A stretch of DNA of 64,000 nucleotides from NCBI GenBank assembly GCA_028287465.1, contig JAQBPO010000018.1, forward strand, positions 1 through 64,000. The letters run 5' to 3'. Below, piece by piece: positions 31,655 through 37,971 of the stretch (positions are counted from its first letter, which is position 1; each line of letters starts with the position of its first letter). Below the pieces are notes generated by a model. The model worked only from the letters and a program-made list of their open reading frames with translations, did not search any database and was not told the DNA's origin. This DNA is from Fibrobacterota bacterium (lineage in GTDB: Bacteria > Fibrobacterota > Fibrobacteria > UBA11236). A program made the translations under genes and the position numbers.

Positions 31655-32263
31655 ATGCTGGATGCGGACATCAAGGAAACCCTGATCGAGAACCTGATCG
31701 GCCAATTGGCCGGGCTGCCTTCCATCGGAAGGAAGACCGCCCAGCGGCTGGCCTACCATATCCTTGCCCAGGATTCCTCGGCCGTGAACGAGCTGGCGCG
31801 CACCCTTACGGACGCCAAGTCGCGCATCCACGCCTGCGCCTCTTGCGGGAATTACACGGAACGGGAGACATGCCGGATCTGCGGCAACGGTCGCCGCCAG
31901 CAGAACATGATCTGCGTCGTGGAGAAGCCCGCGGACATCCTGGCCTTCGAGCGCTCCGGCAGCTACCTTGGCGTCTATCACGTCCTGGGCGGGACCATCT
32001 CGCCCCTGGACGGAATCGGGCCCGGCGACCTGAATTTCGCCAGGCTATGGGAGCGGAGCCGGCAGTCCCAGGTCGAACTGATCCTGGCGCTGAATACCAA
32101 TGCCGAAGGGGAGGCGACCGCTTCCTACATCGTGCAGAAGCTGCAGGGCATGCCTGTCCGCATTTCGCGCCTAGCCCGCGGCATTCCCGTCGGTTCCGAA
32201 CTTGAATACGTGGATGAACTAACGGTGCAACGCGCCCTGGAAAGCCGGGTCGAGATGGGTTGA
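31655..32263 (+). CDS. recR: Recombination mediator RecR
   Basis: RecR of the RecFOR pathway, which loads RecA at gaps; 202 aa, normal length. Helix-hairpin-helix LPSIGRKTAQRLAYHIL (~21-37), a four-cysteine zinc finger (C61, C64, C73, C76), and a Toprim domain beginning ICVVEKPADILAFE with YHVLGGTISPLDGIGP. The ATG at 31655 is chosen because the conserved N-terminus starts here; a longer frame from 31520 adds 45 unconserved residues. No Shine-Dalgarno is seen; a GATAAT hexamer lies 15 bases before the ATG. No dnaX or ybaB neighbour is present. Confidence 0.95.
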   Translation: MLDADIKETLIENLIGQLAGLPSIGRKTAQRLAYHILAQDSSAVNELARTLTDAKSRIHACASCGNYTERETCRICGNGRRQQNMICVVEKPADILAFERSGSYLGVYHVLGGTISPLDGIGPGDLNFARLWERSRQSQVELILALNTNAEGEATASYIVQKLQGMPVRISRLARGIPVGSELEYVDELTVQRALESRVEMG

Positions 32264-32300: not shown

Positions 32301-32912
32301 ATGCAGATCAAATCCGCCGAATTCGTGAAGTCCGCCCAGCACCCGGACGATTACCCCAATGACGGTCGGCCGCATATCGCCGTGGCCGGCCGATCCAACG
32401 TCGGCAAATCCTCCCTGCTCAACATGCTGGTGCAACGCAAGAACCTGGTGAAGACGAGCCAGATGCCCGGCAAGACCCGGCTCATCAATTTCTTCCTCAT
32501 CAACGACGCCTTTTACCTCGTGGACATTCCCGGCTTCGGCTACGCCAAGGTGGGCCGCGAGGAAAAGCGCCAGATGGAGGACGCCATCGAGACCTATTTC
32601 CGGAAGTCCGGCCTGGTCGCGGGGATGATGTACCTCGTGGACATCCGCATGCCCGACAGCCCGGTCGACAAGGAAGCGATCCAATGGCTGAATGATTTCG
32701 GGGTGCCCATGCTGGTCGTCGCGACCAAGGGCGACAAGCTGAAAACCGAACAGACGCGCAAGGCCCTGGCCGAAATCACCAAGTTCCACGCCCTGCCCGA
32801 GCCCCCCCTGGTCACCAGCGCGGATAAGAAGACCGGCCGCGAGGCGGTCCTGGAGCAGTTGGCGATGGTCCTGGAAAGCGCCGCCTCCGGATCCTCCGGC
32901 GCGAAGGGCTGA
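32301..32912 (+). CDS. engB: Ribosome biogenesis GTPase EngB (YsxC/YihA)
   Basis: Essential-type GTPase for assembly of the large ribosomal subunit, 203 aa. G1 GRSNVGKSS, the switch region PGKTRLINFF, G3 DIPGFGYAKV, G4 TKGDKL and the G5-like TSADKK are intact. It lies 37 bases after recR, probably in the same transcript. No Shine-Dalgarno precedes the ATG (upstream ACAAACAACCC). Confidence 0.95.
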   Translation: MQIKSAEFVKSAQHPDDYPNDGRPHIAVAGRSNVGKSSLLNMLVQRKNLVKTSQMPGKTRLINFFLINDAFYLVDIPGFGYAKVGREEKRQMEDAIETYFRKSGLVAGMMYLVDIRMPDSPVDKEAIQWLNDFGVPMLVVATKGDKLKTEQTRKALAEITKFHALPEPPLVTSADKKTGREAVLEQLAMVLESAASGSSGAKG

Positions 32913-33045: not shown

Positions 33046-33867
33046 ATGACCCAGATGTTAGTCTGGATCGGGCAGCAGTACCGCCGATCCTACGTAGGCC
33101 AATTGATGGAATTGGGGCTCCAGGCCTCCTGGTGCGCCGTCCATAAGGAAGGCAACCGGAAGCAGAGCCTGGATCAATTGATCCAGCAGATCTATTACAC
33201 CGGGGTGGAAGCCATCCCCTTGGTGGCCTTCCTGGCCCTCGTCATCGGCAGCGCCACCATCCTGCAGGCCTCGACCGTCATGCCCAAGATCGGCGCAGGC
33301 GATTATTTCGGCAATGTCATGGTGCTGGTCGTGGTGCGCGAAGTGGGCCCGCTGTTCACGGCCTTCCTGGTGGCCGGCCGTACCGGATCCGCTTTGTCCA
33401 CCTACCTGGGGAACATGAAGGTGCAGCAGGAGATCGATGCCCTCAAGACCATGGGCATAGACCCCGTACGCTACCTCGTGTATCCCAGCTTCGCCGCGAC
33501 GGTGATCTCGATGTTCTGCCTGACCGTGATCTTCAACCTGGTCGCCATCTTCGGGGGATACCTCGTCGTGAAATCCCTGTCCCTTTTCGTTTCCGATTTC
33601 TCGGAGTTGCAGCTTTCCCTGTCCCTTTTCCTCGAGCGCATCCTGGCCTCCATGGGCATCATGGACGGGGTCCTGGGCATCGTGAAGCCGGTGTTCTTCG
33701 GTATCCTGGTATCGGTCATCGCCTGTTACCATGGCATAAACGTTTCCAACGATATCCGCGAGGTGCCCAAGGCTACCACCAACGGCGTGGTGAACTCCTT
33801 CGTCTGCATCACCCTGTTCGACACCCTTTTCGCCCTGCCCTTCCTGGCCAAGCTGGGGTTCCTGTGA
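33046..33867 (+). CDS. mlaE: MlaE-family ABC transporter permease
   Basis: Integral membrane permease (273 aa) of the MCE/Mla lipid-transport ABC system, which moves phospholipids between inner and outer membrane. Five to six helices are visible; family stretches are VREVGPLFTAFLVAGRTGSAL, GNMKVQQEIDALKTMGIDP and ACYHGINVSNDIREVPKATT. The ATG lacks a Shine-Dalgarno, but a TACAAT hexamer ends 7 bases upstream, so the message may be leaderless. First gene of a five-gene operon. Confidence 0.92.
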   Translation: MTQMLVWIGQQYRRSYVGQLMELGLQASWCAVHKEGNRKQSLDQLIQQIYYTGVEAIPLVAFLALVIGSATILQASTVMPKIGAGDYFGNVMVLVVVREVGPLFTAFLVAGRTGSALSTYLGNMKVQQEIDALKTMGIDPVRYLVYPSFAATVISMFCLTVIFNLVAIFGGYLVVKSLSLFVSDFSELQLSLSLFLERILASMGIMDGVLGIVKPVFFGILVSVIACYHGINVSNDIREVPKATTNGVVNSFVCITLFDTLFALPFLAKLGFL

Positions 33868-33901
33868 AGCCCGCGGTCCTTAGTCTCAAGGGAGGCCGCC
33901 C

Positions 33902-34672
33902 ATGAGCGTGATCGCGTCCGTGCACAACCTGCGCTTCACCTACCCCGGCCAGGAGACCGTCCTCAGGCGCGTGAACTTCCACGTGCTTCCCGGCCAGATC
34001 CTCGTCATCTGCGGGCTTTCCGGCCAGGGCAAGAGCACCTTGCTGAGGTTGCTGATCGGCCTTGAGAAGCCCGACGCGGGGGTGATACGCCTGCTCGGCA
34101 AGGATATCTCCACCCTGGGCTTCGAGGAGTTCAACGAACTCAAGCGCAGCGTCGGTTTCGTCTTCCAGTCCCCGGCCCTGCTCTCCACCAAGACCATTTT
34201 CGAGAACGTGGCCCTCCCGCTCATCTACCATAACGTCGGGGACGAGGACGAAATCCGTTCCCGCGTGGACAATGCCCTGGAAATGCTCCTCATCAAGGAT
34301 TTCCAGCACCAGTACCCGGCTTCCGTCAGCCTTGGCATCCTCAAGCGCGCCGCGGTGGCCCGCGCCATGATCATGCGCCCCAAGCTCATCCTCATGGATG
34401 AGCCGACCGCCGGCCTGGATCGCATCAGCCGCGCGGTTCTGCTTGCCTTGATCGCCAATATCCGGCGCATCAACCACGTCTCCATGGTGCTGGTGACCCA
34501 TGATCTGCTCGCCGCGCGCGAACTGGGCGGGGAAATCGGCGTGCTCAAGGAAGGCGAACTCTTGCAGCCCATGAACTTCGAACAATTGAAGAATTGCCAG
34601 GATTCGTTCGTCGAATACCTCTTCCGCCAGTTGGAAGAAGAAGCGAACATGACCGGGGAGAAGGCGGCATGA
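33902..34672 (+). CDS. mlaF: MlaF-family ABC transporter ATPase with an altered signature motif
   Basis: Cytosolic ATPase (256 aa) that drives the Mla-type transporter. Walker A GLSGQGKST (38-46), Q-loop FVFQSPALLS, Walker B LILMDEPTAGLD (162-173) and switch histidine TH(D) are intact. The ABC signature, usually LSGG(M/Q), reads VSLGILKRAAVARA (from 142), so two signature positions differ. The rest of the helix (KRAAVARA) matches MlaF. GGGAGGCCGCCC precedes the ATG; the stop overlaps the MCE gene start (ATGA). Confidence 0.9.
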   Translation: MSVIASVHNLRFTYPGQETVLRRVNFHVLPGQILVICGLSGQGKSTLLRLLIGLEKPDAGVIRLLGKDISTLGFEEFNELKRSVGFVFQSPALLSTKTIFENVALPLIYHNVGDEDEIRSRVDNALEMLLIKDFQHQYPASVSLGILKRAAVARAMIMRPKLILMDEPTAGLDRISRAVLLALIANIRRINHVSMVLVTHDLLAARELGGEIGVLKEGELLQPMNFEQLKNCQDSFVEYLFRQLEEEANMTGEKAA

Positions 34673-35619
34673 AGCTCCAGTTGCACAAGCACCGGAACCT
34701 GCTCGCCGGTTTCTTCGTTTCCACGGCCATCGTCACCTTCGTGGTGTCCCTGATCGTGCTCTTCCACAAGAAGGGCGTGTTCGAGATGCAATACACCCTG
34801 AGCGCCGTCTTCGAGAACGGAGTGGGGCTGCGCCCCGGTGCGGACGTTCTTTTCAACGGCGTGAAAATAGGACGGGTGGAATCCGTGAACCTTCTGGGCA
34901 AGGGAGGCATCGACATCTCATCGGGAAAGGTGGTGCTCGACCTGCTCATCGATCGCAAGTTCCAGGATTTCATCACCAGCCGCTCGGTGGCCTTCGCCTT
35001 GCGCGACAAGAACCTGGTTTCGGATCGCGTCGTCAACATCGAGACCCTGGGCCTCGGCGGCAAGATCCTCGAGGGAGGGGATACCGTCATGGTCTCGAAC
35101 TCCCGCGACATCGAATCCGTCCTGAGCGGGCTGACCAAGCTGATGGGGAAGATGGACATGCTCATCAACAGCATCGACGAGATAGTGGTCAAAAGCAAGG
35201 ATCCCAACACCACCGTGGGGGCCATGCTCGGTTCCCGCGAGCTCTATGACCGCCTGCTGGCGGGAGTGAACAACGTGGATACCGCCGTCACCGAGGGCCG
35301 CCAGGTGATGGGGCGCGTCCAGATGCTCACCGATACCATGCACACCGCCCTGGGCGGCCTGTTGGCCCGCGCGGACACGACCTCCGCGAAGCTGGTCCGG
35401 ACGGCCGATCAGGCCGAGCGCCTGGCCGTCCACGCCAACGTACTGGCCGGCCAGGGGGAAACCATCCTCCGGCGCATGGATCAAATCATGCTCCAGGGAG
35501 CGGGCAAGATCGATCAGGCCGGGGACGTGATGGACGCCGTCTCGCAACTGTGGTTCATCCGCGGCAAGATGGCCAAGAAGGGGGATTACCCGGTTTTGCT
35601 CAATGAGGCCGGGCCATGA
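34669..35619 (+). CDS. mlaD: MCE (MlaD-type) lipid-transport protein
   Basis: Membrane-anchored periplasmic substrate-binding component of the Mla-type system, 316 aa from ATG 34669 (MKLQLHKHRN), overlapping the mlaF stop as ATGA. One N-terminal helix (~12-35: LLAGFFVSTAIVTFVVSLIV), then one MCE domain (~45-130: LSAVFENGVGLRPGADVLFNG, IGRVESVNLL). The ~180-residue C-terminus is helical, with long heptad-like stretches (ADTTSAKLVRTADQAERLAV), as in MCE proteins that form tube-like or hexameric assemblies. Longer than E. coli MlaD (~180 aa). Confidence 0.9.
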   Translation: MKLQLHKHRNLLAGFFVSTAIVTFVVSLIVLFHKKGVFEMQYTLSAVFENGVGLRPGADVLFNGVKIGRVESVNLLGKGGIDISSGKVVLDLLIDRKFQDFITSRSVAFALRDKNLVSDRVVNIETLGLGGKILEGGDTVMVSNSRDIESVLSGLTKLMGKMDMLINSIDEIVVKSKDPNTTVGAMLGSRELYDRLLAGVNNVDTAVTEGRQVMGRVQMLTDTMHTALGGLLARADTTSAKLVRTADQAERLAVHANVLAGQGETILRRMDQIMLQGAGKIDQAGDVMDAVSQLWFIRGKMAKKGDYPVLLNEAGP

Positions 35620-36545
35620 GCCGAGCCTCATTCATCGCGGGCCTCTCGCTCTGGGCCGCATTATCCTTGTGCCCGCGCGCGGCGCGCGCGGACGACTCGC
35701 CCAAATACGCCGAGCGCGGCCTAACCGCCTATTACGCCGGCAAATACGATCTGGCGCGCATGTTCTTCGCCAAGGCGATGCAGGACGCCGTGCTCAAGGG
35801 CAAGGACGAATGGATCGCCAAGGCCACCTTGAACCTCGTGGACGTGGAGTTGGAGGCCAATGATGAACGCGAGGCCCAGCGTCTGCTGGAGGGCATGAAC
35901 ACCCGGGATAAGGGCATCCGGTCCCTGTGGCTTTGGAAGCGCTCCCAGCTCGCCAACCTGCAAAGGCTATATCCCCTCGCGTTGGAACTGGTCGATTCCG
36001 CCTTGGATCTGGCCAAGGGCGATCCCGCGAAAACGGCATCGATGGGCCTGGACCGGATGCGTTACCTGATCCAATCGAAAGAACCTTCCGTATGGTCTTC
36101 GCAGTACGAAAGCTTCAGGAAGGGACTCGGCCGCATGCGGTCCGCTCCCCTGGACGCGATGGCGGCCATGGCCCGCAAGGATTACGGCAAGGCGGACACC
36201 TTATGGCGCGAGGCCATGGGTTATTACCGGGACCAGGGCCGCCTGGCCAAGGTGGCCGGATGCCTGAACCAGTCCGCGATCTGCCTTTTTTCCATGGGAC
36301 GCCGGAGCGAGGCCCTGGAAACCAATGCCCGCGCCGTCGCCATCTTCGGCGAATTGGGCCTGGAGATGCCCGGCCTGAAGGCCCAGGCGCTCCGGCTTTT
36401 GCTCGTGGACGACGGTCCTGAGCTTGCCAAATTGCGGCAGGATATGGATCTTGTCGGACAACGGTTCAGCGGCTTCGACCTGCAAGGGATCCTGGATGAG
36501 TATTCGCACAATCTGCGTGACGGCCGCCCTGGCGTGGGGAATTAG
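35616..36545 (+). CDS. Exported TPR-repeat protein in the Mla operon
   Basis: 309 aa with signal peptide SLWAALSLCPRAARA. The mature part is a helical TPR solenoid: repeats at ~30-65 (AERGLTAYYAGKYDLARMFF), ~75-105, ~110-145, then after a less regular stretch ~195-250 (YYRDQGRLAKVAGCLNQSAI, FSMGRRSEALETNARAVAIF). No enzyme motif is seen. It overlaps the MCE gene stop by four bases, so it is translationally coupled, and overlaps the next gene by 50. It probably acts in the periplasm with the MCE transporter; not recognised as a named family. Confidence 0.75.
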   Translation: MSRASFIAGLSLWAALSLCPRAARADDSPKYAERGLTAYYAGKYDLARMFFAKAMQDAVLKGKDEWIAKATLNLVDVELEANDEREAQRLLEGMNTRDKGIRSLWLWKRSQLANLQRLYPLALELVDSALDLAKGDPAKTASMGLDRMRYLIQSKEPSVWSSQYESFRKGLGRMRSAPLDAMAAMARKDYGKADTLWREAMGYYRDQGRLAKVAGCLNQSAICLFSMGRRSEALETNARAVAIFGELGLEMPGLKAQALRLLLVDDGPELAKLRQDMDLVGQRFSGFDLQGILDEYSHNLRDGRPGVGN

Positions 36546-37971
36546 CTCAGCCGCGAATCTCCAGCCCCAGGATCTCCTTTTCGTTTCCACCCATAAATAC
36601 CCGACCCAGGTGGTCGGGGATTCGAAAAACGCCTTCCTCCTCACCGAGGGCGGCATCCTCATGTACGATTACCGGAAGTCCGCGTGGCTGGACAACCTTG
36701 TCCCGGGCGGACCGGTTTCGGGAATCCGGTTTTCCCAGACTCGATCCAAGCTTTACGTGCTGATGGCGGGGGGGCGCACCCTGGAATACAACCCCGTATT
36801 CCGCCGCTTCACGGACGCGTCCCTCGAGGATTACCAGGCGGCCACCGATGCGGGCACCCAGCCGGACCTGACCGGCCTGACCCTGGACGGAGACAACTTT
36901 TTCCTCGGGGACGCCTTGCGGGACAAATACATGCGTCGCGCCCCGATCAAATCGGCCAAGGTATTCGACTACGACAATCTGTGGATCCTGACCGACGGCC
37001 TGGGGCCATTCTACGGTTCCGTGCGCCGCAAGCAGGCCTCCTCGTTCTGGTTCGGCCTCGACTATCCCGCCACCTCGGTCATCTATCCGGAAGGAAACAA
37101 CCTCTGGTTCGGTTCCTGCCGCAGCGATTTTCCCGGCGCCAACGTCGGAACCGGGATCGCGTCGCAGAGCAACGGAGCGCTGGTCAAGGCCAAGGCCGAT
37201 CTGAACGGATGGAAGGCCTACCCCGCCCAGTTGGAATACGGCTTCGGGGACGGATGCGTGCGCGACATCAAGGCCTGGCGGGACTTCATCTGGCTGGCCA
37301 CGGACAAAGGGCTGGTGCGCCATGACCCCCGTACCGGGCTCTTCAAGACCGTCCGGCACATGATGGGCAGCACGGACGTGCGCGTCAACTTCCTGCACGT
37401 GCATGAGAACCTGCTCTACCTTGGGACCGAGCGCGGCGTATGCTTCCTGGACGACGTGAACAAGGACGACCTGCCGACCCTGGGCGAGCTTCCGGTGCCG
37501 GGAGGCGTGCAGGTCTTCGATCTCGTCTCAAAGGACAAGGACCTATGGGCGGCCACGCGTTACGGCCTCCATGTCTTCCAGGGCGGCGCCTGGAAAAGCC
37601 TGAACAAGGTATCCGCCAAGGACGTGCCGGAGGCGACCAATGTGCTCAACCTTTCCATGGCCTACCACGATACTTCCATGTATTGGATCTACGAGAACAA
37701 GGTCATGGTCAAGCCGCGCAGGCATGAGCAGAAGGTGTTGCTGGAGCGGGATCATCCCACCAAACTGGCCTTCGACGGCGAGATCCTCTACGTGGCATTC
37801 CGGAGCGGCGTGACCGCCTACGATACCCGCAAAGGTTTATGGACCGACTTCCGCCTGGAGGACGGCATACCCGGGTCGCGCGTCGTAAGCATGGCCCTGT
37901 CCGCCGGGAAGCTCTGGATCGGAACGGACGCCGGAGTGCAGCGGGTCAACCTCAGGTCGTACCTTCCCTGA
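36496..37971 (+). CDS. Exported beta-propeller protein in the Mla operon
   Basis: 491 aa from ATG 36496 (MSIRTICVTAALAWGISSAA), chosen for AAGGGA 6-7 bases upstream and a clear signal peptide; the gene therefore overlaps the TPR gene by 50 bases in another frame. Repeated blades with the pattern LWxG(T)xxGVxxxD (DNLWILTDGLG, DFIWLATDKGLVRHDPRTGL, NLLYLGTERGVCFLDD, KDLWAATRYGLHVFQGG, GKLWIGTDAGVQRVN) resemble two-component-regulator propeller repeats, but no kinase or DNA-binding domain follows. Probably a periplasmic binding or scaffolding protein. The specific role is unknown. Confidence 0.75.
   Translation: MSIRTICVTAALAWGISSAANLQPQDLLFVSTHKYPTQVVGDSKNAFLLTEGGILMYDYRKSAWLDNLVPGGPVSGIRFSQTRSKLYVLMAGGRTLEYNPVFRRFTDASLEDYQAATDAGTQPDLTGLTLDGDNFFLGDALRDKYMRRAPIKSAKVFDYDNLWILTDGLGPFYGSVRRKQASSFWFGLDYPATSVIYPEGNNLWFGSCRSDFPGANVGTGIASQSNGALVKAKADLNGWKAYPAQLEYGFGDGCVRDIKAWRDFIWLATDKGLVRHDPRTGLFKTVRHMMGSTDVRVNFLHVHENLLYLGTERGVCFLDDVNKDDLPTLGELPVPGGVQVFDLVSKDKDLWAATRYGLHVFQGGAWKSLNKVSAKDVPEATNVLNLSMAYHDTSMYWIYENKVMVKPRRHEQKVLLERDHPTKLAFDGEILYVAFRSGVTAYDTRKGLWTDFRLEDGIPGSRVVSMALSAGKLWIGTDAGVQRVNLRSYLP

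Follow-up and report, generated by a model that had tools for sequence, protein, structure and literature searches.

Does the MlaEFD-type transporter of a Fibrobacterota bacterium work with exported partners that are encoded directly behind it? The question is raised by a locus in a stretch of 64,000 nucleotides of DNA (contig C88 of the 5.8-Mb assembly G000), hereafter called the window. There, mlaE, mlaF and mlaD are followed in series by genes for an exported TPR protein and an exported beta-propeller. The initial annotation had proposed that both proteins belong to the transporter and may replace the periplasmic shuttle and the outer-membrane parts of the Mla system. Pfam matches and coordinates bear out the series of five genes itself (Table 1). 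Gene order, conservation, co-loss, a gene fusion, export signals and the fold of the TPR protein were read directly. In our main reading, to which we give a probability of roughly 0.6, mlaE-mlaF-mlaD-TPR would encode a four-gene MCE transporter. The TPR protein would bind the distal end of MlaD and tether it toward the outer membrane, and the propeller would be a separate protein.

Table 1 Genes of the mla locus and its upstream neighbours in the window
Feature	Position	Strand	Remark	Basis
recR	31655..32263	+	conserved upstream neighbour	TIGR00615 recR, 235 bits
engB/ysxC GTPase	32301..32912	+	conserved upstream neighbour	TIGR03598, 198 bits
mlaE	33046..33867	+	permease, no STAS domain	Pfam MlaE (PF02405), E=4.5e-62; solved MlaE relatives
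mlaF	33902..34672	+	ATPase, LSxG-type signature motif	Pfam ABC_tran; Walker A GLSGQGKS, Walker B LILMDEP
mlaD	34669..35619	+	one MCE domain and long C-terminal region	Pfam MlaD (PF02470), E=6.2e-12; alignment A2
TPR gene	35616..36545	+	exported TPR protein, 309 aa, proposed fourth subunit	TPR_12, E=2.6e-11; AlphaFold2 model
propeller gene	36496..37971	+	exported Reg_prop-type beta-propeller, judged outside the transporter	Pfam Reg_prop

The four-base overlaps described initially are present at the mlaF/mlaD and mlaD/TPR junctions (ATGA) but not between mlaE and mlaF, which lie 34 nt apart in the window. The mlaE/mlaF junction is readable in six relatives, and in four of them (G001, G002, G003, G010) it is a 4-nt overlap. 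As claimed, the propeller starts (ATG at 36496) 50 nt inside the TPR gene. No promoter or terminator patterns above chance level were found between the five genes, and Ka/Ks values of 0.07-0.25 against two congeners indicate purifying selection on all of them. Upstream, recR is a neighbour common to the loci of genera g1 and g2 and of families f2 and f3. The GTPase gene engB adjoins mlaE in other families of the phylum as well.

The ABC ATPase with its two Walker motifs adjoins mlaE and mlaD. Its signature motif in the lineage of the window is SLG/LSxG, where LSGG is usual; the MlaF encoded at a second locus of the same genome, on contig C53, has LSGG. MlaD carries a hydrophobic stretch at about residues 10-33. 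A profile search matched its C-terminal region of about 190 residues to designed coiled coils. Pfam detects no barrel domain in this protein, which at the sequence level ends soon after the helical region.

The signal peptide of the window TPR protein is SPase I-like, with a site of the AxA type (AARA-DD), and contains no lipobox. According to their signal patterns, the TPR proteins of families f1-f3 are soluble-looking rather than lipid-anchored. As far as pattern matches can tell, lipobox-like signals are found on the TPR proteins of f5, on part of those of f7 and f9, and on almost every one from outside the phylum. The AlphaFold2 model (pLDDT 90.6) is an all-helical TPR solenoid. Profile searches of the gene returned TPR families only, with no PF03886 (DUF330) domain, and no resemblance to a lipid-binding family was found. 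The best structural matches are peptide- or protein-binding TPRs such as LGN/Pins and Rap. These matches, and the general capacity of TPR domains to bind peptides and proteins, would suit an assembly, regulatory or recruiting factor (e.g., to peptidoglycan, TamB-like or outer-membrane assembly proteins) that is not part of the lipid conduit. We consider this role unlikely, yet the most serious competitor among those discussed here. A fusion to the tip of MlaD, described below, and the strict gene order favour a stoichiometric subunit, although both are compatible with such a factor. That TPR proteins are generic binders nonetheless counts against a subunit role.

Within the phylum, the TPR gene is closely tied to mlaD. 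A TPR profile (A1) and, alongside, an MlaD-type profile were searched against 168 genomes and matched in 115 and 126 of them, respectively. For 114 of the 126 mlaD genes of this type, the gene immediately downstream, in the same orientation, is the TPR gene; the gap between domain ends has a median of 11 nt. Since A1 matches one place per genome, contig-split copies aside, it does not simply pick up any TPR at the cut-off used. Among about 700 predicted genes of longer loci, one further TPR-profile match was found beyond the target loci and split or fused copies. Three of the 12 exceptions to the adjacency are contig ends. In another six (G166, G167, G112, G107, G124, G133), a divergent exported TPR-type gene that scores below the A1 cut-off follows mlaD. 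Family f4 (two genomes, G012 and G014) and G138 have mlaEFD without a TPR gene; the TPR protein is therefore not indispensable.

Several loci show particular features. The MlaE proteins of the TPR-less family f4 (L101, L116) have an N-terminal extension of 180-290 aa without a Pfam match. Open frames of 903 and 608 aa in f5 were considered as MlaD-TPR fusions and rejected, as they are stop-to-stop stretches in which the TPR part starts at the mlaD stop. Short interspersed repeats stand in frame between the start codon and the mature part of the TPR gene in L073 (8517-8700), L075 (600-743, minus strand) and L077 (1850-2180, minus strand). They are AATTGCAAATTGAAAA-like in L073 and L075 and GTCGGGCGTCGGGCG-like in L077. 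In both L073 and L075, the letters of the repeat, once translated, give the hydrophobic core of the TPR signal peptide. L074 and L075 (contigs C28 and C77 of the MAG G002) each carry a partial TPR copy at a contig end; the two copies differ and possibly reflect mixed strains. L075 also contains an additional gene of 447 aa between engB and mlaE.

The fate of the locus in closely related genera separates the two exported proteins. Genus g1 has all five genes in unchanged order. In G001, G002 and G005, the cluster was read from two contigs, as contigs end inside it, and the TPR gene was not recovered in G001, where contig ends break the cluster. In the four genomes of the sister genus g2, mlaE, mlaF, mlaD and the TPR gene are absent as a block, with the flanking synteny intact. 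The propeller is kept there, 45% identical, in the part of the conserved block close to recR-engB. Because the TPR gene was lost together with mlaEFD in one event, it seems to serve the transporter; because the propeller survived that loss, it does not seem to. The g2 genomes retain three other MCE genes, the counterparts of the other three of G000 (loci assigned in G006 and G008).

More distant families point the same way for the propeller. In family f2 (G010), mlaEFD-TPR is complete and no propeller stands behind it. The f3 loci examined have recR-engB-mlaEFD-TPR, and no propeller homologue was found beside them. By homology search, the propeller is a gene of family f1. Relatives conserve its signal peptide and the ANLQ.QD mature start. 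In f3, weak matches to the propeller were rejected as orthologues; the two inspected in detail are PorV-like, with 727-735 aa (in L022 and L028, the latter PorV plus Reg_prop by Pfam). The fold resembles the propellers of BT4663, BT4673 and PorZ, but the model is poor (pLDDT 67.8) and the matches are only indicative. An identification as PorZ was rejected, with 22.1 bits for PF21544 against a cut-off of 27 bits. The propeller counts 491 aa, and PorZ about 750 residues in its solved structure (5m11).

A five-component transport system of MlaEFD, TPR protein and propeller, as the initial annotation had it, is very improbable on these grounds. Order and overlaps are kept in genus g1 and purifying selection acts on all the genes. 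For the propeller, however, the system is largely refuted by its persistence in g2 after the loss of mlaEFD and TPR, and further by the propeller-free homologous loci of f2 and f3 and its confinement to f1 by homology search. The five-gene order, whose conservation elsewhere had been put forward as a check, thus holds in g1 but not in f2 and f3, where the propeller is missing, nor in g2, where mlaEFD and TPR are. Unlinking from mlaEFD in relatives had been named beforehand as a refutation; it was found for the propeller and not for the TPR gene. The proposed association with MlaEFD stands for the TPR protein alone, through its adjacency across the phylum, its occurrence in other phyla and one fusion. 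The simplest history is that of an old mlaEFD-TPR unit, behind which the propeller joined in f1, and which was lost without the propeller in g2. In our judgement, the propeller is an exported protein in its own right, confined to one family and placed at the end of the operon by chance; it should be dropped from the system.

Outside the phylum, similar arrangements recur. The MlaD-TPR fusion protein of G317 served as query against a wide sample of other bacteria. The TPR gene stands directly behind mlaD at seven of the 20 MCE loci retrieved from outside the phylum, one of the 20 being impossible to judge. Exported TPR genes after mlaD were found in eight outside genomes (G290, G337, G258, G191, G338, G393, G255, G305). 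The mlaD/TPR junctions are mostly 4-nt overlaps and the TPR protein is usually lipoprotein-like. In the phylum of G191, all three genomes sampled have one mlaD with a TPR gene and others without. Position and fold, rather than specific sequence, are the grounds for taking these proteins as homologues of the window TPR. More remote matches (G346, G374, G254) were rejected as generic TPRs with no MCE gene nearby.

In G317 itself, mlaE and mlaF are followed by a single ORF that encodes MlaD (Pfam E=1.2e-8) and TPR (TPR_12, E=2.6e-16) parts. No signal sequence or lipobox was found between the two parts. A frameshift artefact is unlikely, as a frameshift between neighbouring genes would leave a signal sequence there. 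The fusion, present in one genome, is probably real. It would put the TPR part on the periplasmic side, at the C-terminus of MlaD.

These data also bear on the idea that the TPR gene is only a passenger of a conserved recR-engB operon, functionally unrelated to MlaEFD. The recR-engB-mlaE synteny is indeed conserved in itself. Nevertheless, G337, G290 and G305 have mlaEFD-TPR, yet homologues of engB and recR were not detected immediately before mlaE; g2 lost the TPR gene with mlaEFD and kept recR-engB, and the G317 fusion joins TPR to MlaD. We regard hitchhiking as extremely unlikely. At the level of sequence comparison, the view that the TPR protein works with MlaEFD is well supported.

As for the missing Mla components, the statement that MlaA, MlaB and MlaC are absent holds for the locus. 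MlaA (PF04333) had no match in G000 or nine relatives either, in a search that was positive in the E. coli control. In contrast, MlaC and an MlaE with an MlaB-like STAS domain are encoded in G000 at the second mla locus, away from the window transporter. This locus (C53; L071, 2925-10730) has genes for a TolC-like OEP and MlaC on one strand. The other strand encodes STAS-MlaE, MlaF, MlaD, ABC_trans_aux and a 540-aa protein without a family match, which is conserved in G010 (L094, 562 aa, 37%). The DUF330 gene of G000 thus sits behind this other mlaD, so the TPR gene holds the same operon position as DUF330.

The suggested replacement of the periplasmic shuttle was not borne out, given that an MlaC exists elsewhere in the genome and that MlaEFD systems without MlaA, MlaB and MlaC are reportedly the commonest type outside Proteobacteria (PMC10665443). 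A TPR protein that works with MlaEFD as a soluble substitute for MlaC, carrying lipid across the periplasm, would fit its export, its soluble-looking form in f1-f3 and the lack of mlaC at the window locus. Helical solenoids are also able to hold hydrophobic ligands. However, the lipobox-bearing TPR proteins of other lineages and the covalent fusion in G317 are unsuited to a shuttle, and the TPR protein does not resemble lipid-binding families. A shuttle would also be less needed given the long MlaD (PMC10665443). We find this role quite improbable.

The four-gene transporter remains our preferred reading. MlaE, MlaF and an MCE ring of MlaD would form an inner-membrane ABC complex, from which the long C-terminal helices of MlaD, judging from MlaD families, could reach into the periplasm. 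The exported TPR protein, lipid-anchored by prediction in many lineages, would bind MlaD close to or at its distal C-terminus, a site implied by the natural fusion. There, it might tether or position MlaD at the outer membrane or at an outer-membrane or peptidoglycan partner. Most likely, it is an accessory subunit, periplasmic or held by a lipid anchor, that docks on the far end of the MlaD needle, comparable by position to PqiC and other DUF330 lipoproteins of MCE systems. Docking of the needle to the outer membrane would be the most economical reading of position, anchoring and analogy. Physical binding, the outer-membrane side, stoichiometry, and lipid cargo and direction are points that we infer. 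A wider proposal is more tentative, and we lean against it: MlaEFD and a TPR (lipo)protein could form an ancient four-component system spread over several phyla, with the TPR protein as outer-membrane dock in place of MlaA/MlaC, PqiC or an MlaD beta-barrel.

MlaD of the FCB group lacks the outer-membrane beta-barrel found in Veillonella (PMC10665443), which leaves its connection to the outer membrane to be explained. The TPR protein is a concrete and testable candidate for this link: it is fixed behind mlaD through the phylum, likely a lipoprotein elsewhere, and once fused to the MlaD tip. No description of an MlaEFD-TPR partnership was found in the literature searched; MCE-TPR fusions could stand in supplementary tables outside that search.

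Compared with known systems, the window propeller shares the Reg_prop beta-propeller domain with the sensor propellers BT4663 and BT4673 and with PorZ, but it is a lone, exported protein in which no kinase or PorZ architecture was seen. The transporter has homologues of MlaE, MlaF and MlaD in common with the E. coli MlaFEDB-MlaC-MlaA system. It differs from those six components by the absence of MlaA from the genome, the restriction of MlaC and STAS to the other locus, a longer MlaD and the TPR protein. The DUF330/ABC_trans_aux family (PF03886), which includes PqiC, offers a close parallel: its accessory genes stand immediately after the MCE gene, and their exported products are often lipid-anchored and sometimes MCE-fused (PMC5561183, PMC10897342). 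In Proteobacteria, a single-MCE gene is most often followed by a DUF330 lipoprotein gene (PMC5561183), and PqiAB is tethered to the outer membrane by PqiC (PMC10897342). The partner in the window is, however, a TPR solenoid instead of a DUF330 fold. Finally, MlaEFD of Veillonella parvula likewise has an elongated MlaD and no MlaA, MlaB or MlaC. Its MlaD ends in an outer-membrane beta-barrel (PMC10665443), whereas a separate TPR protein follows MlaD in the window.
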